Below are positions 12,209 to 63,806 of a DNA stretch of 64,000 nt, piece by piece (positions within the stretch are counted from its first letter, which is position 1; each line of letters opens with the position of its first letter). The stretch is from Streptomyces albogriseolus (GTDB taxonomy: Bacteria; Actinomycetota; Actinomycetes; Streptomycetales; Streptomycetaceae), in NCBI GenBank assembly GCA_014650475.1, contig BMVA01000012.1, forward strand, positions 48,910 to 112,909, written 5' to 3'. The position numbers and the translations under genes were made by a program. The notes beneath the pieces are model-generated. The model saw nothing but the letters and a program-made list of their open reading frames with translations. It made no database searches and had not been told where the DNA came from.

Positions 12209-13096
12209 ATGAGGACCGCCGTGATCCGGTCGCAGGAGCGGACCGTCGACGGGCATACCAGGGCCGGCGCCGTCGGCGAGGACCTTCGCGGTCCCGGCGA
12301 CCCGCGCGCCGTCGCGCCCCACGACGCCCGCGAGCTCTCCCGGCAGTTCTTCCGTCGCCTCGCGGAGCTGGAGGAAGGCACCCGCGAGTACCAGTACGCG
12401 CGCAACACGCTGATCGAGATGAACATGTCCCTCGTGCGCTTCGCGGCCGGGCGGTTCCGCGGCCGGGGCGACGACATGGAGGACGTGGTCCAGACCGGCA
12501 TGATCGGCCTGATCAAGGCCATCGACCGGTTCGAGCTGTCCCGCGAGGTCGAGTTCACCTCCTTCGCGCTGCCCTACATCGTCGGCGAGATCAAGCGCTT
12601 CTTCCGCGACACCACCTGGGCCGTGCACGTGCCGCGGCGGCTCCAGGAGCTGCGTGTGGAGCTGGCCAAGGCCCGCGAGGAGCTGTCGAGCCGGCTGGAC
12701 CGCGAGCCCACCGTCCCCGAGCTGGCGACCCTGATGAACATCAGCGAGCAGCAGGTCGTCGAGGGACAGATCGCCGCGAACGGCTACAACTCCTCCTCCC
12801 TGGACGCCGCGCTCACCGGGGACGGCCCGGAGCACGGCGAGGCCGTCCTGGCCGACTTCATCGGCGTCGAGGAGGAGCGGCTGGCCCTGGTGGAGGACTT
12901 CCACGCGCTCGCCCCGCTGATGGCGGAGCTGAGCGACCGGGACCGCGAGATCCTCCACATGCGATTCGTCGAGGAGGCCACGCAGGCGGAGATCGGCGAG
13001 CGGCTGGGCTGCTCGCAGATGCACGTGTCCCGGCTGATCAAGCGGATCATCACCCGGCTGCGGACCGGCATGCTCGGCGAGCTGGGCTGCGCCTGA
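12209..13096 (+). CDS. sigL: SigB/SigF/SigG-group RNA polymerase sigma factor (SigL-like)
   Basis: This 295-residue sigma factor has regions 2, 3 and 4. Region 2 includes RFRGRGDDMEDVVQTGMIGLIKAIDRF, split here as a core-binding and -10 helix; region 3 starts near VPRRLQELRVEL; region 4.2 ends with CSQMHVSRLIKRI. This group controls osmotic, oxidative and developmental stress genes in Streptomyces and is held in check by RsbW-type kinases. ATG 12209 has GGGGAGAGGG upstream. The SigL name rests on recalled position beside popR and is less certain than the group. Confidence 0.88.
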   Translation: MRTAVIRSQERTVDGHTRAGAVGEDLRGPGDPRAVAPHDARELSRQFFRRLAELEEGTREYQYARNTLIEMNMSLVRFAAGRFRGRGDDMEDVVQTGMIGLIKAIDRFELSREVEFTSFALPYIVGEIKRFFRDTTWAVHVPRRLQELRVELAKAREELSSRLDREPTVPELATLMNISEQQVVEGQIAANGYNSSSLDAALTGDGPEHGEAVLADFIGVEEERLALVEDFHALAPLMAELSDRDREILHMRFVEEATQAEIGERLGCSQMHVSRLIKRIITRLRTGMLGELGCA

Positions 13097-51632: not shown

Positions 51633-52658
51633 TCAGGCCGTGGCCGGGGCCGCCGGGCCGACCAGTTCCGTCAGGACGTCCTCCATCGTCACGAAGCCGA
51701 TGACCTTGCCGTTCTCGCCGACGGCCGCGGCGAGATGGCTGCCCTCCGCGCGGAGCGCGGTGAGCGTGTCGTCGAGCGGGGTGTCGATCCGGACCCGGGT
51801 GACCTTGTGCAGCGCGGTGCGCGGGAACGGGCGGTCCCGTTCGGTCACGCCGAGGGTGTCCTTGATGTGCAGATAGCCCAGAAGCGCGCCGTCGGGGCCG
51901 GTGACCGGGAAGCGGGACAGGCCCGCCTCGGCGGCCACGCGCTCCAGGCGTGCCGGGGTGACCGTGTGGTCGACGGTGTGCATCCGCCGGGCCGGGACGA
52001 GGATCTCGCCGACCGGGCGGGTGCCCAGCTCCAGCGCGTCCCGCAGCCGCTCCCCGTCCGCCGGGGTGAGCAGTCCGGCCTCGCTGGAGTCGACGACCAT
52101 CCGGGCGAGCTGGTGGTCGGTGAACACCGACTCCACTTCGTCCTTCGGTTCGACCCGCAGCAGCCGCAGCAGGACGTTGGCGAAGGCGTTGATGCCGAAC
52201 ACGAAGGGCCGCAGTGCCCGGGTCAGCCACACCAGCGGCGGGCCGAGCAGCAGCGCGCTGGGCACGGGCGCGGCGAGCGCGATGTTCTTCGGCACCATCT
52301 CGCCGATCAGCATGTGCAGATACGTGGCGAGGGTCAGGGCGATCACGAACGCGATCGGGTGCACCAGCGCGTCCGGGACGTTCAACGCCTCGAACGGCGG
52401 CTCCAGCAGATGCGCGATGGCCGGTTCGGCGACCGCGCCGAGCACCAGCGAGGACACCGTGATGCCGAGCTGGGCCGTGGCCATCATCGCGGACAGGTGT
52501 TCCAGCGCCCAGAGGGTCATCCTGGCGCGCTTCTCGCCCGCGAGGGCGCGCGGCTCGATCTGGCTGCGGCGCACCGAGATCAGGGCGAACTCGGCGCCCA
52601 CGAAGAACGCGTTGGTCAGCAGGGTGAGAACGCCGATGGCGAGCTGCAGGACGGTCAT
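51633..52658 (-). CDS. CNNM/CorC-type hemolysin-family membrane protein, downstream paralogue
   Basis: This 341-residue protein has an N-terminal DUF21 membrane domain (about 1-180; AEFALISVRRSQIEPRA, AQLGITVSSLVLG, IGEMVPKNIALA) and two CBS domains (about 205-325). The family exports magnesium or other divalent ions, or links ion levels to CBS nucleotide binding. It lacks the C-terminal CorC_HlyC domain present in its upstream neighbour. The ATG start overlaps the previous stop as ATGA, so both are one operon. Confidence 0.88.
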   Translation of the reverse strand: MTVLQLAIGVLTLLTNAFFVGAEFALISVRRSQIEPRALAGEKRARMTLWALEHLSAMMATAQLGITVSSLVLGAVAEPAIAHLLEPPFEALNVPDALVHPIAFVIALTLATYLHMLIGEMVPKNIALAAPVPSALLLGPPLVWLTRALRPFVFGINAFANVLLRLLRVEPKDEVESVFTDHQLARMVVDSSEAGLLTPADGERLRDALELGTRPVGEILVPARRMHTVDHTVTPARLERVAAEAGLSRFPVTGPDGALLGYLHIKDTLGVTERDRPFPRTALHKVTRVRIDTPLDDTLTALRAEGSHLAAAVGENGKVIGFVTMEDVLTELVGPAAPATA

Positions 52659-53989
52659 CGGGCCTCCTCCATGACCTCGTCGCGTACGGGGGCGGGGGCG
52701 GTGACGCGTATGCGGTCGGCACGGTGGTGCTCGACCTCCAGCACGTCGAGCCGCCAGCCGTCGACGTCCACGGAGTCACCCTTGACGGGGATCCGGGCCA
52801 GGCGGGTGGCGATCAGTCCGGCGACCGTCTCGTACGGGCCGTCCGGGGCGGTGAGGCCCAGGGCGGTGAGCCGGTCGATACGGAGGCCGCCGTCGGCCTC
52901 CCACACCTCGCGGCCGTCGGCCGTGGGGGGCGCGGGCGCCAGCTCCGGCACCTCGACGGGGTCGTGCTCGTCGCGGACCTCGCCGACGACCTCCTCGACG
53001 ATGTCCTCCACGGTGGCGACGCCCGCCGTGCCGCCGTACTCGTCGATGACGACGGCCATGGCGCGGTGGGCGCGCATGCGCTCCAGCAGCCGGTCGGCCG
53101 GGAGGCTGTCGGGGACCAGCAGCGGCGGTGTGGTCAGCTCGGTGACGGGCGTGGTGGCGCGCCGCTCGGGCTCCAGGGCCAGCACGTCCCGGATGTGGAC
53201 GGTGCCGACGACCTCGTCCAGGCTGTCGCGGTACACCGGGAAGCGGGACAGGCCGGTGGCGTGGCTGAGCGCGGCGGCGTCGGCGGCGGTGGCGTGCGCC
53301 TCCAGGGCGCGGACGTCGACCCGCGGGGTCATCACGTTCTCGGCGGTCAGCTCGCCCAGGTGCAGGGTGCGCACGAACAGCTCCGCCGAGTCCGCCTCCA
53401 GGGCGCCCTCGGCGGCGGAGTGCCGGGCCAGCGCGCTCAGCTCCTCGGCGGTGCGGGCGGACGCCAGCTCCTCCGCGGGCTCGAGGCCGAAGCGCCGCAC
53501 GAAGCGGTTCGCGGTGCCGTTGAGGTGGTTGATGAACGGGCCGAAGGCGGCCGTGAAGGCGCGCTGCGGTCCCGCGACGACCTTGGCGACCGCCGCGGGA
53601 CGCGAGATGGCCCAGTTCTTCGGGACCAGCTCGCCGATCACCATCAGCACCACCGTGGACAGCGCCACGCCGAGCAGCGTCGCCACGGTCGGGGCGGCGG
53701 AGCCGAGGCCGGCCGCCCGCAGCGGGCCGCGCAGCAGGGCGGAGAGGGACGGCTCGGCGAGCATGCCGATCACCAGGGAGGTGACGGTGATGCCGAGCTG
53801 GGCGCCGGACAGCTGGACCGTCAGGCGGCGTACGGCGGCCAGCGCACCGGCCGCGCCCCGCTCACCGGCGTCGGCGGCGCGCTCGAGTTCGGCGCGCTCG
53901 ACGGTGGTGAGGGAGAACTCGGCCGCGACGAACACCGCGCAGGCCAGCGTCAGCAGCAGGGCGAGCAGGAGCAGCAGGACCTCGGTCAC
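52655..53989 (-). CDS. CNNM/CorC-type hemolysin-family membrane protein, upstream paralogue
   Basis: This 444-residue protein has a DUF21 domain (about 1-190), two CBS domains (about 210-335; VMTPRVDVRALEA, VIDEYGGTAGVATVEDIVEE) and a C-terminal transporter-associated domain (about 355-440; DGGLRIDRLTALGL). It is likely a magnesium/cobalt efflux component or an integrity factor and may pair with the downstream paralogue as a heteromer. The start is GTG 53989. It forms an operon with 51633-52658 (four-base overlap). Confidence 0.88.
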   Translation of the reverse strand: MTEVLLLLLALLLTLACAVFVAAEFSLTTVERAELERAADAGERGAAGALAAVRRLTVQLSGAQLGITVTSLVIGMLAEPSLSALLRGPLRAAGLGSAAPTVATLLGVALSTVVLMVIGELVPKNWAISRPAAVAKVVAGPQRAFTAAFGPFINHLNGTANRFVRRFGLEPAEELASARTAEELSALARHSAAEGALEADSAELFVRTLHLGELTAENVMTPRVDVRALEAHATAADAAALSHATGLSRFPVYRDSLDEVVGTVHIRDVLALEPERRATTPVTELTTPPLLVPDSLPADRLLERMRAHRAMAVVIDEYGGTAGVATVEDIVEEVVGEVRDEHDPVEVPELAPAPPTADGREVWEADGGLRIDRLTALGLTAPDGPYETVAGLIATRLARIPVKGDSVDVDGWRLDVLEVEHHRADRIRVTAPAPVRDEVMEEAR

Positions 53990-54106
53990 CGTGCCACCCC
54001 CGCTCCCTGTCGGGCCGCATGACGCGGACTGCGGGTGGTGGCACGGTTACTACTGGGAGGATCACCCATCGGGGGACCGTCGCTCCTTTTCGAACAGTAC
54101 GAAGAT

Positions 54107-54136
54107 GTGTGGAAGCAGAATGGACTGCTTCCACAC
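54107..54136 (-). terminator. 12-base inverted repeat in a low-G+C patch (terminator or operator)
   Basis: GTGTGGAAGCAG (54107-54118) pairs perfectly with CTGCTTCCACAC (54125-54136) around AATGGA. It follows the phosphoketolase stop by 55 bases and precedes the CNNM operon start by about 118. The surrounding 54085-54165 is noticeably A/T-richer than the window. It could terminate the phosphoketolase transcript or regulate the CNNM operon. Confidence 0.55.
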
Positions 54137-54190
54137 CAACTGTAAAGGACCCGCAAAACATCCCGCTCGCGCGTGCGGGTCAGGGCCGGG

Positions 54191-56614
54191 TCAGCCGTCC
54201 CACATCCAGTCGGTGACCTCCGGCAGGTCGGTGCCGTGTTCGCGGATCCACTCGTGGTGGCGCAGCCGTACGTCCTCCATCCGCTGCCGTACCGCGGCGG
54301 CCCGCACCGCCAGGCCGGGGACGCGGTCGATGACGTCCATCACCAGCCGGTAGCGGTCCAGGTCGTTGCGGACCACCATGTCGAACGGCGTGGTCGTGGT
54401 GCCGATCTCCTTGTAGCCGCGCACGTGCAGGTGCGGGTGCCCGGTGCGGCGGTAGGCGAGCCTGTGGATCAGCCACGGGTAGCCGTGGTACGCGAAGATC
54501 ACCGGCTTGTCCGCGGTGAACAGGCCGTCGTACTCGAAGTCGGACATGCCGTGCGGATGCTCCTCGCGCGGCAGCAGACGGGCGATGTCGACGACGTTGA
54601 CGACCCGCACCGCCAGCTCGGGCAGATGCCGGCGCAGCAGCTGCGCGGCCGCCATGACCTCCTGGGTGGGGACGTCGCCCGCGCAGGCCAGCACCACATC
54701 GGGTTCGCGGTCGCCGGTCTCGGTGCCCGCCCAGTCCCAGATGCCGAAGCCGCGCGCGCAGTGCGCCTTCGCCTGCTCCATGGTCAGCCAGTCGAAGCAG
54801 GGCTGCTTGCCGGCCACGACGACGTTGACGTAGTCACGGCTGCGCAGCACGTGGTCGGCGACCGACAGCAGGGTGTTGGCGTCCGGCGGCAGGTAGATCC
54901 GTACCGCCTCCGGGCTCTTGTTGATGATGTGGTCGACGAAGCCGGGGTCCTGGTGGGAGAAGCCGTTGTGGTCCTGGCGCCAGACGTGCGAGGTCAGCAG
55001 GTAGTTCAGGGAGGCGATGGGGGCGCGCCAGGGCAGGCGGCGGGTGACGCGCAGCCACTTGATGTGCTGGTTGACCATCGAGTCGACGATGTGCACGAAC
55101 GCCTCGTAGCAGGAGAAGAGGCCGTGCCGGCCGGTGAGGAGGTAGCCCTCCAGCCAGCCCTGGCAGGTGTGCTCGGAGAGGATCTCCATCACCCGGCCGT
55201 GCCGGTCGAGGTCCTCGTCCACGTCGAGCCTGTCGGCCTGCCATGCCTTGCCGCTGGCCTCGTACACGGCCTGGAGGCGGTTGGAGGCGGTCTCGTCGGG
55301 GCCGACCAGCCGGAAGTCGCGGCGGTCCGCGGTGGCCCGCATGACGTCCCGGAGGAGGTCGCCGAGGAGGCGGGTCGGCTCGTGCATGGTCGCGCCCGGC
55401 TTGTCGACCGGGACGGCGTGCCGTTCCAGCGGCGGCATCGGCAGCTCGCGCAGCATCAGCCCGCCGTTGGCGTACGGGGTGGAGCCGAGGCGGCGGGCGC
55501 CGGCGGGGACGCAGGCCAGGACGTCGGCGCGGGGGCGGCCGTCCTCGTCGAACAGCTCCTCCGGCCGGTACGACCGCAGCCACGCCTCCAGCTGCCGCAG
55601 GTGGTCGGGGTTGTCGCGGACGCCGGACAGCGGCACCTGGTGGGAGCGCCAGGTGTTCTCGACGGGCAGCCCGTCGACCTCGGCGGGTCCCGTCCAGCCC
55701 TTCGGGGTGCGCAGCACGATCATCGGCCAGCGGGGGCGCTCGGTCGCGCCGTCCTCGCGCGCGGCGCGCTGGACGGCGGCGATGCGGTCGAGGGCGGTGT
55801 CCATGGCGCGCGCCATCGCCCGGTGCACGGCGGCCGGGTCGTCGCCGGTCACGTGGAGCGGGTCGTGGCCGTAGCCGCGGAGCAGCGCGTCCAGTTCGTC
55901 GCCGGGGATCCTGGCGAGCACGGTCGGGTTGGCGATCTTGTAGCCGTTGAGGTGGAGGATCGGCAGGACGGCGCCGTCGTGGACGGGGTCGAGGAACTTG
56001 TTGGAGTGCCAGGAGGCCGCCAGCGGCCCGGTCTCCGCCTCCCCGTCGCCGACCACGCAGGCCACCACCAGGTCCGGGTGGTCCAGCGCGGCGCCGTACG
56101 CGTGCGACAGGGAGTAGCCGAGCTCGCCGCCCTCGTGGATGGAGCCGGGGGTCTCGGGGGCGACGTGACTGGGGACGCCGCCGGGGAACGAGAACTGCTT
56201 GAACAGCCGCGCCATCCCCGCCGCGTCCCGCGTGACGTCGGGATACGTCTCCGTGTACGACCCCTCCAGCCAGGACCCCGCGACCACCGCGGGCCCGCCG
56301 TGCCCGGGACCCCACACGCACAGGGCGTCCAGCTCACGGGCGCGGATCACCCGGTTGAGGTGGGTGTAGACGAGGTTGAGACCGGGCGACGTGCCCCAGT
56401 GGCCGAGCAGCCGCGGCTTCACGTGCTCCGGGCGCAGCGGCTCGGTGAGCAGGGGGTTCGCCATGAGGTAGATCTGGCCGACGGCCAGGTAGTTCGCGGC
56501 GCGCCAGTGCGCGTCCAGCGTCCTGAGCTCGTCGTCGCCGAGCGCAGCGGGATGGGGGTCCCCCCGGCCGGAGGCTGGGGGAGGGGCGGAGGCCTGGTGC
56601 GTGTCGACGGACAT
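54191..56614 (-). CDS. xfp: xylulose-5-phosphate/fructose-6-phosphate phosphoketolase
   Basis: This 807-residue thiamine-diphosphate enzyme splits xylulose-5-P or fructose-6-P into acetyl-P and a shorter sugar phosphate. Visible family stretches are [25 protein letters not shown]-like cofactor binding ([12 protein letters not shown]), [12 protein letters not shown] and [14 protein letters not shown]. The length is normal. Residues 11-22 ([12 protein letters not shown]) are encoded by a palindromic repeat inserted in the 5' coding end. It follows two USP genes on the same strand, as expected for an energy-limitation response. Confidence 0.94.
56552..56583 (-). repeat. dispersed Streptomyces-type palindromic repeat within xfp
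   Basis: Minus-strand CCCCCAGCC-TCC-GGCCGGGGGG followed by ACCCCC. I recall very similar hairpins (CCCCCAGCC...GGCYGGGGG-ACCCCC) repeated through Streptomyces genomes. Here it is in frame and adds about 11 residues near the phosphoketolase N-terminus. Confidence 0.55.
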
Positions 56615-56714
56615 CGTGTGTCCTTCCGCGTCGGGGGGTCTCGGGTGCCTGGAGGTCGGTGTGCCTGAGGGTGCGTACCCTCCTCACCTTCCCCATGAGG
56701 CGGGGCTCCCGACA

Positions 56715-56728
56715 GGGCCACGTGGGCC
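56715..56728. promoter_or_regulatory. candidate palindromic operator before xfp
   Basis: GGGCCACGTGGGCC, an imperfect palindrome around CCACGTGG, 101 bases before the xfp start and just after the upstream USP stop. It vaguely resembles GGG...CCC-type sites of DevR/OsdR regulators that control such clusters; this is weak. Confidence 0.25.
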
Positions 56729-56746
56729 ATCTGCGGCCCCCCGCCC

Positions 56747-57634
56747 TCAGTCCCCCTCCTCTCCGTGCGGGACCACCGCCACCGGGCAGGCGGAGCGGTG
56801 GAGGGCCGTGTGGGTGACGCGACCGAGGTGAGGGCTCAGGCGGCCCTCGTGGCGGCGGGCGCCGACGACCAGCAGGTCGGCCGTGTGCGAGGCGTCGACG
56901 AGGACCTCGCGTGCGGGCCCCTCGACCGTGCGGGCGTGGACCTCCACGCCCGCCGGGACGTCCGCCAGAGCGGCGTGCAGTTCCTCGGCGGCCCGCTTCT
57001 CGTGCAGGTGGGCGGCCTCACCGGCCGCGAGGGGGAGGTCGGTGGTCTCGTACGCCGGGCACCGCCAGGCCCGTACCGCCTCCAGGGGCACCCCGCGCCG
57101 GCGGGCCTCGTCGGCGGCGAACCGCAGGGCCGCCGGGTGCTCGCCGACGCCCACGACGACCCGGCCGCGCACCGGCGGCGCCGCCTGGCTGTCGTGGCTG
57201 CCGCGCAGCACCACCACCGGGCAGCCGGCCTGCGCGGCGACGGCCAGGGCCACCGAGCCGAGCAGCACCTCGGCGACGCCGCCCCGGCCTCGCGTGCCCA
57301 CGACCAGCACGGACGCCGTGCGTGCCGCGCGCACCAGCGCGTACTGCGGCTCGTCCGGCACGACCTCTTCCTCCACCCGCAGGCCGGGGCGGCGGGTGCG
57401 CACCCGCCGGGCGGCGTCGGCGAGGACGCCTCCGGCGGGCGGCGGGACCGTCGCTTCGGCGCCCGGGTACCGGTCCGGCGACGCCGCGTGCACCAGCCGC
57501 AACGGCACCCCGCGCAGGTCGGCCTCGTCGGCCGCCCAGTCGACGGCCCGCAGGCTCGGCGCGGACCCGTCCACGCCGATCACCAGCGGCCACGAGGCGT
57601 CGGGCGCGGTGACGGCTTCCGGCTCCATGGTCAT
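56747..57634 (-). CDS. universal stress protein, two UspA domains
   Basis: This 295-residue protein has tandem UspA domains (about 17-145 and 157-290) with ATP-binding signatures VVGTRGRGGVAEVLLGSVA and VVGARRHEGRLSPHLGRVTH. It is 20 bases downstream of another USP gene and 132 bases upstream of phosphoketolase on the same strand. ATG 57634 begins MTMEPEAVT; the internal ATG 57628 is an alternative. A role in hypoxia or starvation survival is inferred from family and context. Confidence 0.87.
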   Translation of the reverse strand: MTMEPEAVTAPDASWPLVIGVDGSAPSLRAVDWAADEADLRGVPLRLVHAASPDRYPGAEATVPPPAGGVLADAARRVRTRRPGLRVEEEVVPDEPQYALVRAARTASVLVVGTRGRGGVAEVLLGSVALAVAAQAGCPVVVLRGSHDSQAAPPVRGRVVVGVGEHPAALRFAADEARRRGVPLEAVRAWRCPAYETTDLPLAAGEAAHLHEKRAAEELHAALADVPAGVEVHARTVEGPAREVLVDASHTADLLVVGARRHEGRLSPHLGRVTHTALHRSACPVAVVPHGEEGD

Positions 57635-57654
57635 CGGATTCTTCCGCACGGCGG

Positions 57655-58515
57655 TCAGTCGTGCGCGACGACGGCGACGGGGGCGGTGGCGTGGTGCAGC
57701 ACCGCGTGGGTGACGGGTCCGATGTGCGCGCCGATCGGGCTGCGGCGGACCCGTCGGCCGACGACGACCAGCGAGGCGTCGCCGGCGGCCTCGACGATCC
57801 GGACGGCCGCGCTGCCGGCGCGGGACTCCTCGGCGACCTCCACGTCGGGGAACTTCTCCCGCCAGGGGCGCAGCACCTCGGCCAGGGCCTCGGACTGCTC
57901 CCCGCCCAGATCGGCGGCGAGCGCGGGGTAGGCGGGGAGGGCGTAGGCGTAGTACGGCGGGACGGTCCAGCCGTGCACGGCCTTCAGCACGGCGCCGCGG
58001 CGGGCGGCCTCCTCGAAGGCGAAGGTGAGGACCGTGCCGTTCGGCTTGTCCGTGTCGACGCCCACCACCACGGGCCCGGCGGCCTTCGCGGACGTGGCAT
58101 CGCGGACGAGGACGACCGGGGTGGTGGTGTGCGCGATCACCACCATGCCGACGGAGCCGACGAGGAAGCCGCCGATGCCGCCGAGACCGCGGGAGCCGAG
58201 GACGAGCAGGTCGGCGTCCTTGGCCACCTCGGGGAGGATGTCCATGGGGCCGCCGGGGATCTGTTCGGCGACGACCTCCAGTTCCGGGTGGCGCGCCCGC
58301 AGCGTCTCGCCCGCCTCGCGCGGGAGACGTTCGGCGCGCTGCCGGAAGGTGCCGTCGGCCATGAGGTCGGACTCGGCGATGTGCCCGGGGATCGGCTCCC
58401 GGACGTTGACCAGCCGCAGCGGCAGACCGCGCAGCAGCGCCTCTCGGGCGGCCCACTCTGCGGCGGCGCGGCTCTCGGACGAGCCGTCGTAGCCCACGGT
58501 GACGTTGCGGAGCAT
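57655..58515 (-). CDS. universal stress protein, two UspA domains
   Basis: This 286-residue protein begins MLRNVTVGYDGSSESRAAAEW. UspA domain 1 (about 3-142) has VLGSRGLGGIGGFLVGSVG and domain 2 (about 150-284) has VVGRRVRRSPIGAHIGPVTH, both ATP-binding types. GAGGTGG precedes ATG 58515. It heads the cluster USP-USP-phosphoketolase. It is a distinct paralogue of the two other USPs, with about the same length and layout. Confidence 0.88.
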   Translation of the reverse strand: MLRNVTVGYDGSSESRAAAEWAAREALLRGLPLRLVNVREPIPGHIAESDLMADGTFRQRAERLPREAGETLRARHPELEVVAEQIPGGPMDILPEVAKDADLLVLGSRGLGGIGGFLVGSVGMVVIAHTTTPVVLVRDATSAKAAGPVVVGVDTDKPNGTVLTFAFEEAARRGAVLKAVHGWTVPPYYAYALPAYPALAADLGGEQSEALAEVLRPWREKFPDVEVAEESRAGSAAVRIVEAAGDASLVVVGRRVRRSPIGAHIGPVTHAVLHHATAPVAVVAHD

Positions 58516-58605
58516 GGGATCCACCTCTCGTTTCGGGACCCCTCTGCGTCGGGCGCCCCTCCGCTGCCTACGATCCCGGCACGGCACGCCCCATGGCAGA
58601 GGCCG

Positions 58606-58660
58606 CCGGTCCCGACCGCCCGGGCCGTTGGGCCCTCCGTCCGGGGCCCGCCGGGACCGG
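58606..58660 (-). terminator. possible terminator after the symporter/phosphatase fusion gene
   Basis: CCGGTCCC (58606-58613) pairs with GGGACCGG (58653-58660); the long intervening sequence contains GGGCCC-type stems that could nest. It starts 18 bases after the minus-strand stop at 58678. The evidence is weak. Confidence 0.35.
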
Positions 58661-58677
58661 GGCGGCGACCACCCGCC

Positions 58678-61600
58678 TCACGGCTCCGCCACGAACGGCT
58701 GCTCGGTCCAGATGATCTTTCCGGTCGCCGTGTGCCGGGTGCCCCAGCGGTGGGCGAGCTGGGCGACGATCATCAGGCCGCGGCCGCCCTCGTCCGTGGT
58801 GCGGGCGTGGCGCGGGCGCGGGGAGGTGCCGCTGCCGTCGGCGACCTCGCAGATGAGGCCGCGGTCGCGGATCAGCCGCAGGGAGACCGGCCCGGAGGCG
58901 TGCCGGATCGCGTTGGTGACGAGTTCGCTGACGATGAGTTCCGTGGTGAACGCCAGGTCGTCCAGGCCCCACTCGGACAGCTTCCGCACCGCGGCCGTGC
59001 GGGCGGTGCCGACCGCCGCCGGGTCGCTGGGCAGGTCCCAGGACGCCACCCGGTCCGCCGGCAGCGACCGGGTGCGGGCCAGCAGCAGCGCCGCGTCGTC
59101 CGGCGGCGGCCCGGTGAGCAGGGTGTCGACCACGCCCCGTCCGATCTCCCGCAGCGTGGGGCGGGGCACGGCGAGGGCGGCGCCCAGCCGGGCGATCCCC
59201 TCGTCGATGTCCCGGTCCGGGGTCTCGACGAGACCGTCGGTGTAGAACGCCAGCAGGCTGCCCTCGGCCAGGTCCCACTCGCACGACTCGAAGGTCAGGT
59301 AGCCGAGCCCCAGCGGGGGCCCCGCGGGCAGGTCGAGGATCTCGGCGGTGCCGTCCGGGGTGACGAGGACGGGCGGGAGGTGTCCCGCGCGCGCCATCGA
59401 GCACCTCCCGCTGACCGGGTCGTACACGGCGTACAGGCAGGTCGCGCCGAGGAAGGCGGCGCCCGCGGCGGCGGGCTCCTGGTCGTCGTGGGCGCCCATC
59501 AGCCCGATGACCAGGTCGTCGAGGTGGGCGAGCAGTTCGTCCGGCGGCATGTCGAGGTTGGCGAGGGTGCGGACCGCGGTGCGCAGGCGTCCCATGGTCG
59601 CGGCGGCGTCCATGCCGTGCCCGACGACGTCGCCGACGACGAGGGCGACCCGGGCGCCGGACAGCGGGATGACGTCGAACCAGTCGCCGCCGACGCCGTT
59701 CGGGGCGTCGGCCGGCTGGTACCAGGACGCCACGTCCACCGCGGACCCGCCGGTGAGCGCCTGGGGCAGCAGCGCCTGCTGCATGGCGCGGGCGGCGGTC
59801 CGCTCACGGGTGTAGCGGCGGGCGTTGTCCACGGCCACCGCGGCGCGGGAGACGATCTCCTCCGCGAGCCGCACGTCGTCGTCGCCGAACGGGCCGGACC
59901 GTTCGGTGCGGGCGAAGGTGGCCACGCCGAGGGTGACGCCCCGGGCCCGGACCGGCACGACCATCAGGGAGTTGTAGCCGTACTTGAGGATGGACGCACC
60001 GAGCGAGGGGTCCTCGGTGACCCAGGGGCTGGTCTCGCGGTCGAGGGTGCGCTCGACGAGGGTGCGGCTCTCCAGGAGGCAGCGGGTGACGGGCGAGGAG
60101 GAAGCCCGCCGGACGGCCTCCCCGAGGGCGAGGCTGCCGCCGCAGCCGCCCTCCCTCGCCGACGCCTGCCCGGCGCGGCGGATGACCGGGGACAGGCCGA
60201 CGGGTCCGGGCGCGGGTTCCTCGCCGCGCATCACGGTGTCCAGCAGGTCCACGGCGACGAAGTCGGCCACGTCCGGCACGGCCTCGTCGGCGAGTTCCTG
60301 CGCGGTGCGGGGGACGTCGAGGGTGCTGCCGATACGGGCGCCTACGTCGTTCAGCAGGGCGAGTCTGCTCTGCGCCCGCCACCGCTCGGTGACGTCGACG
60401 ACCATGTACAGGACGCCCACGGTGGTGTCGTGGCGGTCGGTCACCCCGAAGAACGACACGGAGACCGCGCGGGCGTCCCTGGGTTGCTCCTCCTGGCTGC
60501 GGAACTCCCAGTCCATGACGGGCTCGCCGGTCTCCAGCACCCGCCGCATCTGCTCCTCGAAGAGCCGGTACTCGGCGGTCGGCCGGAGTTCGCTCAGCCG
60601 CCGTCCGATGCGCCGTTCCAGCGGGATCAGCTGGGCCAGAGGTTCGTTCACCCACACGAACCGCAGGTCCGTGTCGAGCATGGCCAGGCCGACGGGCGCG
60701 CGGGTGAGGAAGGGGGTGAGCACCACGGAGCTGGTGCCGCCGCCGGGCATCCGCCAGAAGGCGCGTTTCGGCGGCCGTCCGACGTACCGGCCGAAGACGA
60801 GGGCGGCGACCGTGGCGGCGAGGACGCCCGGGACCATCTCGTAGACGCTGGTCTCGAGCGGGCCGAGCAGCGGGTTGACCCATTCCCACGCCAGGACGGT
60901 GCCGGCGCCGGCGACGATGCCCGCCATGGCGCCGGCCCAGGTCATGCGGGGCCAGTACAGCGAGAGCAGCACCACAGGGCCGAAGGCGGCCCCGAATCCG
61001 GCCCAGGCGTGGGCGACGATGTTCAGCAGCCCCCCGCCTCTGAGGGCGATGACGTACGCCACCACGATGACCAGGACGACGGTGGCGCGCCCCACCCATA
61101 CGAGCAACCGGTCGGGGGCTCTGCGGTGGAGGAACGCCCGGTAGAAGTCCTCGGTGAGCGCCACGGAGGACACCAGCAGCTGGCTGTCCGCGGTGGACAC
61201 GACGGCGGCGAGCACCGCGACCAGCATGATCCCGGCGATCCACGGGTCGAGGAGCAGACGGCTGAGCGCGATGTACACGGTGTCGGGGGCGGACAGCGCC
61301 GGCGACAGCTCGCCGATGCCGGCCAGGCCCACGAGGGTGGCGCCGGTGAGGACGAGGACCACCCAGCCGGTGCCGATACGGCGGGCCGCGGGGATGTCCC
61401 GGGTGCTGCGGATGCTCATGAAGCGGGCCAGGATGTGCGGCTGGCCGAAGTAGCCGAGCCCCCAGGCGAGCAGCGAGACGATCGCCAGCACCCCGAGCGG
61501 CCCCTCGGGCGTCCAGGACCCTCCCGAGTACGCGACACGGGAGCTGAACTCGCGCAGCGCGGGCTGTCTGCCGTCGAGGGTGTCCCCGAGCGCGCCGAAG

Positions 61601-62235
61601 CCGCCGAGGCGCGCGATCGCGACGGCGGGCAGCACGACCAGGCCGAGCAGCATCAGCGAGGCCTGGAGGACGTGCGTGAGGCTCACCGCGAGGAAGCCGC
61701 CCAGGCACGAGTAGATGACGATCAGCAGTCCGGTGAGGGTGACGCCGACGGTGAAGCGCAGGTCGAAGACGGTCTGGAACAGCAGCCCGCCGGCCACCAG
61801 GCCGCTGCCGACGTACACGGTGAAGAAGACGAGGGTGACCGCGGCGGAGACCAGCCGCAGCATGCGGGTGCGGTCCTCGAACCGTTCCTCCAGATAGCCG
61901 GACAGGGTCACCGCGTTCCCGGCGCGCTCGGTGTAGGTGCGCAGGCGTGGCGCGACGAACAGCCAGTTCAGGTACGTCCCGACGACCAGGCCGACGGGGA
62001 GCCACACGGAGCCGAGCCCGGCCGCGTAGACGGCGCCGGGGAGCGCCAGGAACAGCCAGCCGGACATGTCGCTGGCGCCCGCGGACAGCGCGGCGACCCA
62101 GGGACCGAAGCGGCGGCCGCCGAGGGCGAAGTCCTCGAAGGTGTGCGTGCGCGTGTAGGCCCGGATCCCCGTCCCGATCAGGGCGAGCACGTACAGGACG
62201 AACGTGGCGATGATCGGCGCGCTCAGCTGGAACAT
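58678..62235 (-). CDS. fusion: sodium:solute symporter - PAS - GAF - SpoIIE/PP2C phosphatase - anti-sigma HATPase
   Basis: This 1185-residue protein is encoded in one uninterrupted frame. Residues 1-480 are a PutP-like SSS transporter with about 13 membrane helices (GGRRFGPWVAALSAGASDMSG is the family's early Na+ motif region, part quoted). Then come PAS (505-620; LDTDLRFVWVNEP), GAF (623-800), SpoIIE/PP2C (820-1050) with GGDWFDV, VGDVVGHG, YTDGLVE and PPDDAALLLAR all intact, and a GHKL ATPase (1065-1185) with ELVTNAIRHA and GGRGLMIV. It probably senses solute or ion flux and acts on sigma-factor antagonists. ATG 62235 has GAGG upstream; GTG or ATG 62271 is a weaker start. Confidence 0.88.
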   Translation of the reverse strand: MFQLSAPIIATFVLYVLALIGTGIRAYTRTHTFEDFALGGRRFGPWVAALSAGASDMSGWLFLALPGAVYAAGLGSVWLPVGLVVGTYLNWLFVAPRLRTYTERAGNAVTLSGYLEERFEDRTRMLRLVSAAVTLVFFTVYVGSGLVAGGLLFQTVFDLRFTVGVTLTGLLIVIYSCLGGFLAVSLTHVLQASLMLLGLVVLPAVAIARLGGFGALGDTLDGRQPALREFSSRVAYSGGSWTPEGPLGVLAIVSLLAWGLGYFGQPHILARFMSIRSTRDIPAARRIGTGWVVLVLTGATLVGLAGIGELSPALSAPDTVYIALSRLLLDPWIAGIMLVAVLAAVVSTADSQLLVSSVALTEDFYRAFLHRRAPDRLLVWVGRATVVLVIVVAYVIALRGGGLLNIVAHAWAGFGAAFGPVVLLSLYWPRMTWAGAMAGIVAGAGTVLAWEWVNPLLGPLETSVYEMVPGVLAATVAALVFGRYVGRPPKRAFWRMPGGGTSSVVLTPFLTRAPVGLAMLDTDLRFVWVNEPLAQLIPLERRIGRRLSELRPTAEYRLFEEQMRRVLETGEPVMDWEFRSQEEQPRDARAVSVSFFGVTDRHDTTVGVLYMVVDVTERWRAQSRLALLNDVGARIGSTLDVPRTAQELADEAVPDVADFVAVDLLDTVMRGEEPAPGPVGLSPVIRRAGQASAREGGCGGSLALGEAVRRASSSPVTRCLLESRTLVERTLDRETSPWVTEDPSLGASILKYGYNSLMVVPVRARGVTLGVATFARTERSGPFGDDDVRLAEEIVSRAAVAVDNARRYTRERTAARAMQQALLPQALTGGSAVDVASWYQPADAPNGVGGDWFDVIPLSGARVALVVGDVVGHGMDAAATMGRLRTAVRTLANLDMPPDELLAHLDDLVIGLMGAHDDQEPAAAGAAFLGATCLYAVYDPVSGRCSMARAGHLPPVLVTPDGTAEILDLPAGPPLGLGYLTFESCEWDLAEGSLLAFYTDGLVETPDRDIDEGIARLGAALAVPRPTLREIGRGVVDTLLTGPPPDDAALLLARTRSLPADRVASWDLPSDPAAVGTARTAAVRKLSEWGLDDLAFTTELIVSELVTNAIRHASGPVSLRLIRDRGLICEVADGSGTSPRPRHARTTDEGGRGLMIVAQLAHRWGTRHTATGKIIWTEQPFVAEP

Positions 62236-62439
62236 GTGGTCCTCGCCCGGAAGTCCCGCGATGCGCGGCACACCCTCGGTCCGGCGGGCAAAACATGACT
62301 TCGGCGCTAAATCTACTCAAGTCGGGCGGGTGCAACCAGGGGAACGCCGGTTCCGGGACCTCCGGCCGTGCGGTGGAAGGAACCTTCGGCTCCCTCGGCC
62401 GGCCGTGCCTCCCGTGACCGGGACGGCGGGTGACGCGAA

Positions 62440-62471
62440 GGGCCCGGGGCGCCTCACGGCACCCCGGGCCC
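62440..62471 (-). terminator. terminator after the DoxX-like gene
   Basis: A ten-base perfect stem GGGCCCGGGG / CCCCGGGCCC with a 12-base loop, beginning 13 bases past the stop at 62484. Confidence 0.75.
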
Positions 62472-62483
62472 GGTGCGCCGCCG

Positions 62484-63071
62484 TCAGCGGAGCCAGCGGT
62501 GGCGGGCGACGACGGGGACGCGGGCCCACAGACGGCCCAGACCCCACACCGCGCCCGCGCCCGTCGCCGCCAGGGCGACGAGAGCCGCCGCGTACACCAG
62601 GTGGTAGTCGGCGAAGGGGTTCGTCGACATGCTCGGTGAGCCGTCGGACAGATGGCGGGCCGGCGGCCACTCCGCCATCCACATGAGCGCCATCATCAGC
62701 GTGCCCGCCGCGGCCGCGGGCCACAGCGCCACGCCCGCGAGCAGCGCGGCCCCGACGCCGAGCAGCCCCAGCATGAACAGCCAGTCCGCCCAGGCCGCCC
62801 CGGCCCAGGCGTGGAACGTCGACTCCAGCGGCCCGACCGCCACGGAGGACAGGAAGCCCTTCGTGGGCTCACCGCCGTCGATCCAGCCGCGGCCGGACTG
62901 CGTCGCGTAGCCCAGCCCGAACGTCTTGTCGAGGAAGGCCCAGAGGAAGACGAAGCCCGTCAGCAGCCGCAGCCCGGCGAGCGCGTACGCGCCCGTCGCC
63001 GCGTGGGTGCCGTCGGCGGACGACGGCCGGTGGAACACAGGCGAGCGGTGCGGGTGATCGTGGACTGCCAT
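62484..63071 (-). CDS. DoxX/DoxD-like membrane protein
   Basis: This 195-residue protein has four membrane segments and the DoxX-family start TGAYALAGLRLLTGFVFLWAF (part), with FAWAFLDKTFGLGY-like spacing. It also has a large loop with a Trp-Gly-Asp-Gly pattern (GRGWIDGGEPTKGFL). DoxD members are subunits of thiosulfate:quinone oxidoreductase in archaea; bacterial DoxX proteins are broader. Placement next to a rhodanese supports a sulfur or redox role (inference). ATG 63071 begins MAVHDHPHRSPVF; ATG 63104 adds 11 residues. Confidence 0.75.
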   Translation of the reverse strand: MAVHDHPHRSPVFHRPSSADGTHAATGAYALAGLRLLTGFVFLWAFLDKTFGLGYATQSGRGWIDGGEPTKGFLSSVAVGPLESTFHAWAGAAWADWLFMLGLLGVGAALLAGVALWPAAAAGTLMMALMWMAEWPPARHLSDGSPSMSTNPFADYHLVYAAALVALAATGAGAVWGLGRLWARVPVVARHRWLR

Positions 63072-63218
63072 GGTGTCCGTCCCCTCCCAGGAACTGCCCG
63101 ACATCTGAACGCTTCTCGTTGCGTCTTCAATGTCTCGCCGCCGGGGCGCGCGCCCCAGGGACCGCGGGTCCCGGGCCGGGCCCGAACGTCCCTGGGAAGA
63201 GGGGGCGGACCGGGAGCG

Positions 63219-63806
63219 TCACTTCCCCCGCAGCGCGGCGAGCGCACCCTCGAGGTTCGTCCCGCGCGGGCGGTTGGGGGGCAGCTTGCCGAGGACGACG
63301 GCCATGCCGCAGGTGTCGGTGAGGGCGGAGAAGACCAGCCCGCCCGCGATGCCCGCGGAGAGGAGCTGGAACGCGGGGTGCACCAGCAGGCCGAGCACCA
63401 GACCGAGCAGCACCAGGGTGCCGGCGGTGAAGCGCACCTGGCGCTCCATGCCCCACACCGCGCGGGTGTCGCAGGCCACGGGACGCTCCAGGTCCCGCCC
63501 CTCGGACGCCCATGCGGCGGTGCCGCCGGCGAGGGTGGCGGCGGGCACACCCTCGGCGGCGATGAGACCGGACGCCTTCTCCGAGCGCGCCCCGGAGGCG
63601 CACACCACGAGGAGGCCGCCGCGCTCGGCGGCCTGCCGGATCTCCGGCAGGGCGCGCTTGACCTGGTCCAGGGGCACGTTCAGGGCGCCGGGCAGGTGCC
63701 CGGTGGCGTACTCGGCGGGGGTGCGGACGTCGATGACGGTGAAGTCGTCCAGGCGGGCGGCGGCCTGGACGACGGTGAGGGTGTCCGGGGTGACGGGGGC
63801 GGCCAT
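63219..63806 (-). CDS. rhodanese-domain sulfurtransferase with C-terminal membrane domain
   Basis: This 195-residue protein has a rhodanese domain (about 5-110) with the active loop VVCASGARSEKA (catalytic Cys, CxxGxR form). A DUF2892-like region with two membrane helices follows (about 125-180), so the enzyme is membrane-attached. Such fusions move sulfane sulfur and help detoxify sulfide or polysulfide. ATG 63806 begins MAAPVTPDTLTVVQ. A perfect palindrome upstream points to a CsoR/CstR-type regulator; that gene is not in the window. Confidence 0.87.
   Translation of the reverse strand: MAAPVTPDTLTVVQAAARLDDFTVIDVRTPAEYATGHLPGALNVPLDQVKRALPEIRQAAERGGLLVVCASGARSEKASGLIAAEGVPAATLAGGTAAWASEGRDLERPVACDTRAVWGMERQVRFTAGTLVLLGLVLGLLVHPAFQLLSAGIAGGLVFSALTDTCGMAVVLGKLPPNRPRGTNLEGALAALRGK

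Follow-up and report, generated by a model that had tools for sequence, protein, structure and literature searches.

A sodium/proline symporter joined to PAS, GAF, PP2C phosphatase and anti-sigma ATPase domains in Streptomyces: a candidate transceptor with partner-switching output

We analyzed a 64,000-nucleotide stretch of Streptomyces albogriseolus DNA (assembly GCA_014650475.1, contig BMVA01000012.1, positions 48,910 to 112,909 of the forward strand; hereafter "the window"), in which one gene encodes a PutP-type sodium/proline symporter, PAS and GAF domains, a SpoIIE-type PP2C phosphatase and an RsbW-type ATPase in a single protein (hereafter "the fusion"). This is a real, conserved architecture that belongs to one clade and, as far as sampled, to one genus. 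It is already in print as a domain set, and its plan is that of an SLC5 transceptor with partner-switching output. With modest confidence, and wholly by inference from sequence, we take the protein to function as such a transceptor, partner switching standing in place of the histidine kinase. The extracellular gate looks retuned, so that binding and signaling may outweigh transport in the symporter domain. The features of the fusion, in window positions, are as follows:

58678..62235, minus strand: whole coding sequence, 1185 amino acids plus stop (ATG at 62235, stop at 58678)
60766..62217, minus strand: PutP-type sodium/proline symporter domain, residues 7-490 (TIGR02121 and SSF; 13 transmembrane helices in the structure model)
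60721..60783, minus strand: linker from the last transmembrane helix to PAS, residues 485-505 (low model confidence at 492-513)
60382..60705, minus strand: PAS domain, residues 511-618 (Pfam)
60334..60390, minus strand: helical linker from PAS to GAF, residues 616-634 (AlphaFold2 model)
59827..60321, minus strand: GAF domain, residues 639-803 (Pfam)
59770..59883, minus strand: 38-residue helix from GAF to PP2C, residues 785-822, candidate signal helix (model)
59071..59658, minus strand: SpoIIE-type PP2C phosphatase, residues 860-1055 (Pfam, motif alignment)
58708..59034, minus strand: RsbW-type ATPase / anti-sigma kinase domain, residues 1068-1176 (Pfam, motif alignment)

Translation yielded an uninterrupted minus-strand frame of 1185 codons plus stop. 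A GTG at 62271, 12 codons upstream of the ATG at 62235, lies in a frame that is likewise open, but the relatives have their start codon, ATG or GTG, where the window has 62235, and a ribosome site containing GAGG stands ahead of it. Pfam profiles matched SSF (residues 36-443, E 2e-92), PAS_4 (511-618, E 3e-15), GAF_2 (639-803, E 9e-8), SpoIIE (860-1055, E 1e-49; 169 bits against a cut-off of 25) and HATPase_c_2 (1068-1176, E 8e-13; 48.9 bits against a cut-off of 27.4). The NCBIfam equivalog model for the sodium/proline symporter PutP, TIGR02121, scored 553.8 bits over residues 7-490 (cut-off 515.5). At E 1e-3, Pfam detected neither HisKA, in whose place PP2C stands, nor STAS, and NF041045 (RsbA_anti_sig) of NCBIfam was not reached (47.6 of the required 210 bits).

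In an AlphaFold2 model built from 44 alignment rows, the symporter part comprises 13 helices long enough to cross the membrane, as counted by hand from the DSSP string with one 50-residue helix taken as two. The PP2C part is modeled at low confidence (mean predicted local distance difference test score [pLDDT] 74.3, predicted template modeling score [pTM] 0.48), as is the C-terminal end of the 785-822 helix. Foldseek matched the model to SLC5 structures and to Rv1364c (3ke6). Only ~20-25 residues separate the last membrane helix from PAS (Pfam, AlphaFold2 model), a linker too short for a STAC domain, and its W-R-x-PGGG motif also occurs in the unfused relatives at loci L017-L019. Thus, the single symporter-PAS-GAF-PP2C-ATPase frame of 1185 codons that an earlier reading of the sequence had described (the original prediction) was borne out by translation, Pfam, NCBIfam and the 13-helix model. 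On the plus strand, an antisense open frame of 1545 codons (window 57661-62298) is in all likelihood a mere shadow of the coding strand, as is common in high-GC DNA.

Conservation was assessed in 16 full-length fusion sequences, the window's included, which are 72-100% identical and each consist of a single frame without stops. Across the genus, class and order samples, in which two to four candidates were scored per genome, all full-length matches lie in one stop-free frame of 1196 to 1935 codons, some of them in one-contig genomes. In the ATPase, E1104, N1108, D1133 and the GRG at 1151-1153 are invariant in the 16 sequences; by comparison with RsbW and SpoIIAB motifs, these are presumably the N-box Glu and Asn, the G1 Asp and the G2 glycines. 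Likewise invariant are D869, D1000, D1046 and D1047 of PP2C, which were equated by motif, not structure, with SpoIIE D628, D746 and D795 according to the metal-site motif assignment of PMC5468089. The original prediction had called the phosphatase and ATPase intact; consistently, conserved loss of catalytic residues was not observed, and nothing points to a frameshift, the fusion lying in a single frame in every full-length relative. For nine sequence pairs, the ratio of nonsynonymous to synonymous substitution rates (dN/dS) was 0.13-0.25 in the symporter part and 0.06-0.62 in the other domains, remaining below 1 in every domain of all nine pairs; among the five domains, PAS had the highest value in 5 of 9 pairs.

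Of 150 Streptomyces genomes sampled, 16 carry the full-length, single-frame fusion. It also occurred in 3 of 296 genomes of the class (all Streptomyces; 1 of 114 genera) and in 18 of 197 genomes of the order (1 of 6 genera), with two or three candidates scored per genome in these two samples, and the carriers in all samples together, with the window's genome, comprise 30 distinct genomes. Named examples (6 of the best 80 loci in a scan with two symporter patterns) were again all Streptomyces. Two of the named examples, L023 and L025, have symporter parts identical to those of L170 (genome G454) and L171 (genome G584) of the genus, respectively. One class-level candidate, L126, with a frame of 959 codons, was rejected as a fusion and proved to be a free PutP. 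A mobile origin was considered and rejected: a scan of viral contigs with the whole fusion protein found no relative, and none of 72,556 plasmid records had a place covering 80% of the fusion or of P0002, a second SLC5-PP2C fusion described below.

In midpoint-rooted trees, 22 fused symporter domains formed one clade (support 100/99), with free PutPs of actinobacteria next to it. The C-terminal halves of the same 22 proteins likewise formed one clade (96/99), with L017-L019 next to it. The extended set of 33 distinct fused symporter rows was also a single clade (100/100). In the nearest unfused relatives, an additional PAS occupies the symporter's place (nine by eye; L017 and L018 by domain scan). 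Given a single clade for each half and a PAS where the fusion has PutP, the fusion most likely arose once by exchange, a whole PutP having replaced the first PAS of a PAS-PAS-GAF-PP2C-ATPase protein.

The distribution of free PutP genes was also examined. PutP-class genes (E <= 1e-100) were present in 19 of the 150 genus genomes, namely, 16 with the fusion (4 of which additionally have a free PutP) and 3 with free PutP only. It is these same three genomes (G064, G090 and G137) that carry the closest SSF-less relative of the fusion (68% identity); the SSF-less relatives that follow are at most 60% identical. Free PutP occurred in 6 of 8 genomes having the closest SSF-less relative but no fusion, versus 1 of 144 having neither (i.e., 0 of 131 in the genus sample and 1 of 13 in a further sample, the order-sample rows listed and not in the first sample; Fisher p 1e-8, relatedness of genomes ignored). 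As exceptions, G530 and G506 have the SSF-less relative without PutP, and G393 has PutP without the relative. The paired clades, one fused and the other unfused and accompanied by a separate PutP in 6 of 8 genomes, offer a natural control. In 24 of the 30 carriers, the fusion is the sole PutP-class gene (13 of 17 at E <= 1e-60 and 11 of 13 at E <= 1e-100). In the window's genome, the SSF protein that scores best after the fusion lies at C20 and belongs to the MctC type.

To describe the symporter part, we compared 33 distinct fused symporters with 27 non-fused PutPs (16 from Streptomyces, one from another actinobacterium and 10 from Firmicutes and Proteobacteria), using E. coli PutP numbering derived from an alignment with the K-12 gene, not from structure. 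All 33 fused symporters keep the residues at A53, D55, M56, S57, W59, Y140, W244, Y248, P252, A337, S340, T341 and W405. These include the Na2 residues S340/T341 and the proline-site residues D55, S57, Y140, W244, Y248 and P252. The D187 position is His in 33 of 33 fused and in 15 of 17 free actinobacterial rows, and is therefore no effect of fusion. More specifically, 129 positions were identical in at least 26 of the 27 non-fused PutPs, and five of these (64, 65, 169, 203 and 318) had moved in the fused clade, three of which (64, 65 and 318) correspond to E. coli G63, L64 and E311:

62041..62046, minus strand: residues A64-L65, equivalent to E. coli PutP G63-L64 (alignment)
61282..61284, minus strand: residue D318, equivalent to E. 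coli PutP E311 and H. pylori PutP E310, in the gate loop (alignment)

Position 64 is Ala in 32 of 33 fused symporters and Gly in 26 of 27 non-fused PutPs, and position 65 is Phe in 7 of 33 and 1 of 27, respectively, with Leu kept in 26 of the fused. The E311 position is Glu in all 27 non-fused PutPs and in 12 of 33 fused symporters, and Asp in the window's protein; on the tree, at least five changes at this position fall inside the fused clade, and none in the 27 non-fused rows. Positions 169 and 203 are not among the known gate residues. In E. coli PutP, L64 is an outer-gate residue crucial for transport (PMC7918813), and replacing E310 of H. pylori PutP by Cys left no measurable transport (PMC3866251). 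The location of three of the five moved positions at or adjoining the extracellular gate hints at a transporter retuned into a sensor. We read the pattern as relaxed or altered gating with conserved binding in the fused clade, the positions having been chosen post hoc. The gate changes favor sensing of occupancy over sensing of flux, which in the original prediction would directly set both the phosphatase and the kinase side of the switch.

Proteins with SSS, GAF, PP2C_SIG and HATPase_c domains were listed for Actinobacteria in a 2021 SMART survey (Int J Mol Sci; PMC7918813), their carriers being three Streptomyces species and a record labeled Actinospica acidiphila. The window's fusion is most likely one of these proteins, as matched by domain set, not by sequence; its section and figure legend on these proteins list the domains alone, without analysis of origin, residues, partners or function. 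In the open literature, searched mostly by title and abstract, we found no functional study of SSS-GAF-PP2C-ATPase proteins, nor any account of PP2C combined with a front end of the CbrA type.

The fusion shares with CbrA and CrbS an N-terminal SLC5 fold followed in the cytoplasm by a GHKL ATPase fold, and with CbrA also a PAS domain in the cytoplasmic part; the analogy to these SLC5-kinase sensors drawn in the original prediction holds at the level of architecture. Unlike them, it has neither STAC (72 residues in CbrA; PMC7096432) nor HisKA, and its output is PP2C plus an RsbW-type domain. It also belongs to the PutP subfamily and keeps the Na2 serine/threonine, whereas CbrA has a Na2-site lysine and is probably proton-driven (PMC13022988, PMC7096432). 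Compared with a PutP symporter, the fusion passes the equivalog cut-off and keeps the binding residues, but has ~690 more residues and altered outer-gate positions. The best solved relative of the cytoplasmic half is Rv1364c of Mycobacterium tuberculosis (PAS-RsbU-RsbW-RsbV; 3ke6, E 1e-23; Foldseek E 2e-11), which likewise unites PAS, PP2C and anti-sigma ATPase in a single chain but is not known to have a membrane part or a GAF domain. OsaC of Streptomyces coelicolor has its kinase domain at the N-terminal rather than the C-terminal end and is not known to have a symporter; sources disagree on OsaC, which a review also calls a hybrid histidine kinase/receiver protein. Rv1364c has a STAS domain of its own (PMC12143880), while the fusion has none. 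In RsbU, a helical linker has been shown to control the PP2C dimer, and the same is predicted of OsaC and Rv1364c (PMC12143880).

We propose that occupancy of the symporter by Na+ and proline, at high salt or in the presence of an osmoprotectant, would alter how PAS-GAF and the 38-residue helix ahead of PP2C pack or dimerize, and would thereby move the PP2C switch helices. PP2C would then dephosphorylate STAS antagonists, and the adjoining ATPase would rephosphorylate STAS proteins or hold the sigma factor, such that solute at the membrane would set the activity of a SigB-group factor encoded elsewhere. An osmotic rather than a nutritional signal is favored, because salt-stressed streptomycetes accumulate proline (PMC10117811) and other SSS-domain kinases are tied to osmolytes or ionic strength (the EupR system and PrlS; PMC7918813); according to a review, no osmoprotectant uptake system of Streptomyces has been characterized (PMC10117811). 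The transceptor reading is supported by the kept domains and motifs, the retained Na2 and proline-site residues, the single clades, the second PAS of unfused relatives where the fusion has its symporter, the lack of another PutP-class gene in most carriers, the co-occurrence with PutP where there is no fusion, the second SLC5-PP2C fusion and the PP2C linker precedent. With the fusion, a single gene is enough for a direct test of how osmotic signals or compatible solutes reach the SigB-type network of Streptomyces. It also represents a natural test of SLC5 front-end exchange between histidine kinases and PP2C phosphatases, in terms of the coiled-coil linker model (PMC12143880).

Several observations weigh against this proposal. 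In CbrA, transported histidine had no effect on autokinase, phosphotransfer or phosphatase activity (PMC7096432). The membrane-to-PAS linker has low pLDDT at residues 492-513 and is perhaps disordered, which would disfavor rigid mechanical coupling. The co-occurrence statistic ignores the kinship of genomes, and 2 of 8 genomes break the pattern. Moreover, with GC-frame gene prediction and clustering, no neighbor cluster recurred in more than 3 of 19 fused loci; the clusters are only partly annotated, and a STAS profile scan of the neighborhoods was not made.

A possible though doubtful alternative is a pure receptor, in which the fold binds Na+ and proline and the altered outer gate blocks or slows turnover. 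The moved positions 64, 65 and 318 point in this direction, given the importance of L64 and of the E311 equivalent for transport and the repeated changes at the latter position, which are confined to the fused clade. However, Glu is retained there by 12 of 33 fused symporters, Glu to Asp is a mild change, and Cys alone was tested in H. pylori. Leu likewise persists at position 65 in 26 of 33, one non-fused row has Phe there, W405 is kept throughout, two of the moved positions (169 and 203) have no known part in the gate, and the selection was post hoc. A pure receptor would also leave the 24 of 30 carriers that have no other PutP without that uptake route.

Rather unlikely, in our estimation, is a working PutP transporter beside which the cytoplasmic domains merely lie, with uptake and switching independent, the symporter serving as an anchor and PAS/GAF sensing a signal inside the cell. 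CbrA provides a precedent, in that its transporter part works without the kinase part and the phosphorelay without the transporter part, histidine being without effect on the kinase (PMC7096432). The kept binding residues, the usual status of the fusion as sole PutP of its genome and the low-confidence linker are also compatible with independence. Opposed to it are the retention of one fusion in 30 sampled genomes, dN/dS below 1 in every domain (0.06-0.62 over nine pairs) and the gate positions that moved in the fused clade.

The reverse direction of control, whereby phosphatase, kinase and PAS-GAF would gate proline uptake through the phosphorylation state of STAS proteins, is improbable. STAS domains regulate other transporters, and the same anatomy would serve, physical linkage being its sole support; yet a purely regulatory tail would not need its catalytic motifs kept, and removal of the cytoplasmic domains of CbrA left transport unchanged (PMC7096432). 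That two genes were misread as one through an assembly join or a missed frameshift can be dismissed, as all full-length matches have stop-free frames, some of them in one-contig genomes, and each half yields one fused clade.

The second SLC5-PP2C fusion, P0002, is known from one genome, the same that carries the window's fusion:

C1:645563-649180 (= L182:2064-5681), minus strand: P0002, second SLC5-PP2C fusion, 1206 amino acids
L182:5685-5891, minus strand: CbrX-like small frame, 68 codons, ending 3 bases before the GTG of P0002

The first 725 residues of P0002 matched no Pfam model at E 1e-3, SSF included; GAF, SpoIIE and HATPase_c_2 come after them. Residues 7-470 matched PDB chain 10ed_A, "histidine kinase" (E 2e-73), which we take to be the CbrA cryo-EM structure (the term 10ED occurs once in the CbrA paper), and K207 of P0002 stands opposite the Na2-site lysine K196 of CbrA, as counted along the alignment. 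Over residues 1-603, identity to proteobacterial proteins encoded on plasmids is 52.6-59.5% among the matches listed (15 of 63 matching records), both of the two such front-end relatives scanned contain HisKA, and the similarity extends past the symporter into the STAC position, STAC being assigned by position. The 68-codon frame resembles small proteins ahead of four proteobacterial genes of this SLC5 type (scores 66-112; 0 of 1000 shuffles reached any of them), an arrangement like that of CbrX ahead of CbrA. Thus, with this frame ahead of it and its CbrA-like match, P0002 has a CbrX-SLC5-STAC-like front end on a GAF-PP2C-anti-sigma back end of the kind seen in the window's fusion. G+C content at third codon positions (GC3) is 0.90-0.95 along P0002, and a scan of viral contigs with its front part found no relative. 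We tentatively suggest that Streptomyces built transporter-receptors with sigma partner-switching output at least twice independently: in one case a Na+/proline PutP with a retuned gate was used, in the other a CbrX-SLC5-STAC front end of proteobacterial type whose ion site contains a lysine. If true, one cell would read sodium-coupled and proton-coupled solute signals straight into the SigB-type stress network.

Related hybrids were also encountered. On the Azoarcus plasmid pAZKH, a P0002 front-end relative lies in a gene annotated as encoding an EAL-domain protein (L207:3241-6183, plus strand); by annotation only, the SLC5 front end is joined to another output there as well. A 1389-residue hybrid at L183:4138-8304 of C14 (minus strand) is encoded by a single frame with GAF, HisKA, HATPase, receiver, PAS, SpoIIE and HATPase_c_2, so that the protein unites a phosphorelay with a partner switch; two STAS_2 matches adjoin it. 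At L186-L189 and L191-L194, GAF-PP2C-ATPase proteins have a membrane-anchored N-terminus that appears to resemble CitA/DcuS-type sensors; the same output may thus have acquired yet another front end typical of histidine kinases.

The window's genome encodes 48 SpoIIE matches (47 over the cut-off) and, as candidate partners, at least 20 STAS_2 matches (at least 17 over the cut-off; 150 of 180 candidates scored) and nine SigBFG sigma factors over the cut-off. The SigB-group factor that the original prediction placed at 12209 is real (C12:61301-61978, window 12392-13069) and lies ~46 kb from the fusion. Its control by the fusion had been suggested in the original prediction as one possibility; as this factor is one of nine and no neighbor of the fusion recurs in more than 3 of 19 loci, the link is not favored.

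Neighbors of the fusion in the window were looked for in 22 fused loci, two of which, L021 and L122, are one and the same place. Genes for a universal stress protein (Usp), phosphoketolase, CNNM and rhodanese proteins recur together only in L107 and L108 and partly in L024, with CNNM also in L120. An extracytoplasmic function (ECF)-sigma-like gene is common to the near-identical loci L112 and L115. In the window, a same-strand run (51633-63806, minus strand) comprises two CNNM/CBS proteins, a phosphoketolase, a universal stress protein, a rhodanese protein and, at 62484-63104, a membrane protein that matched no Pfam model; much of this run is shared by L107 and L108, and some of it by L024.

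Upstream of the fusion gene, the following element was noted:

62307..62322, minus strand: diverged copy of an upstream element (consensus AAATCTGTASATTTGT), 6 of 16 mismatches, 87 bases before the start codon

The element occurs with at most 2 mismatches in 11 of 22 fused loci and is diverged in the window's own clade; in 17 of 22 loci, the best match lies 84-89 bases ahead of the start codon. In 25 genomes, 17 with the fusion, there were 9 matches with at most 1 mismatch, 8 of them ahead of the fusion gene, versus 3 matches of a reversed-pattern control; no regulon for the element was found in these genomes at this threshold. A SigB-type promoter (G..T-N13-18-GGGTAY) upstream of the fusion was rejected, only 1 of 22 loci (L021) matching. 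A possible hairpin, CCTCG-CAGG-CGAGG, spans the ribosome site; it is broken in the window's own clade and was part of the best fold only in L026 among four stretches folded. All five of its pairs are possible in 14 of 22 fused loci, with A-U replacing G-C in L026 and a G-U pair in L015.

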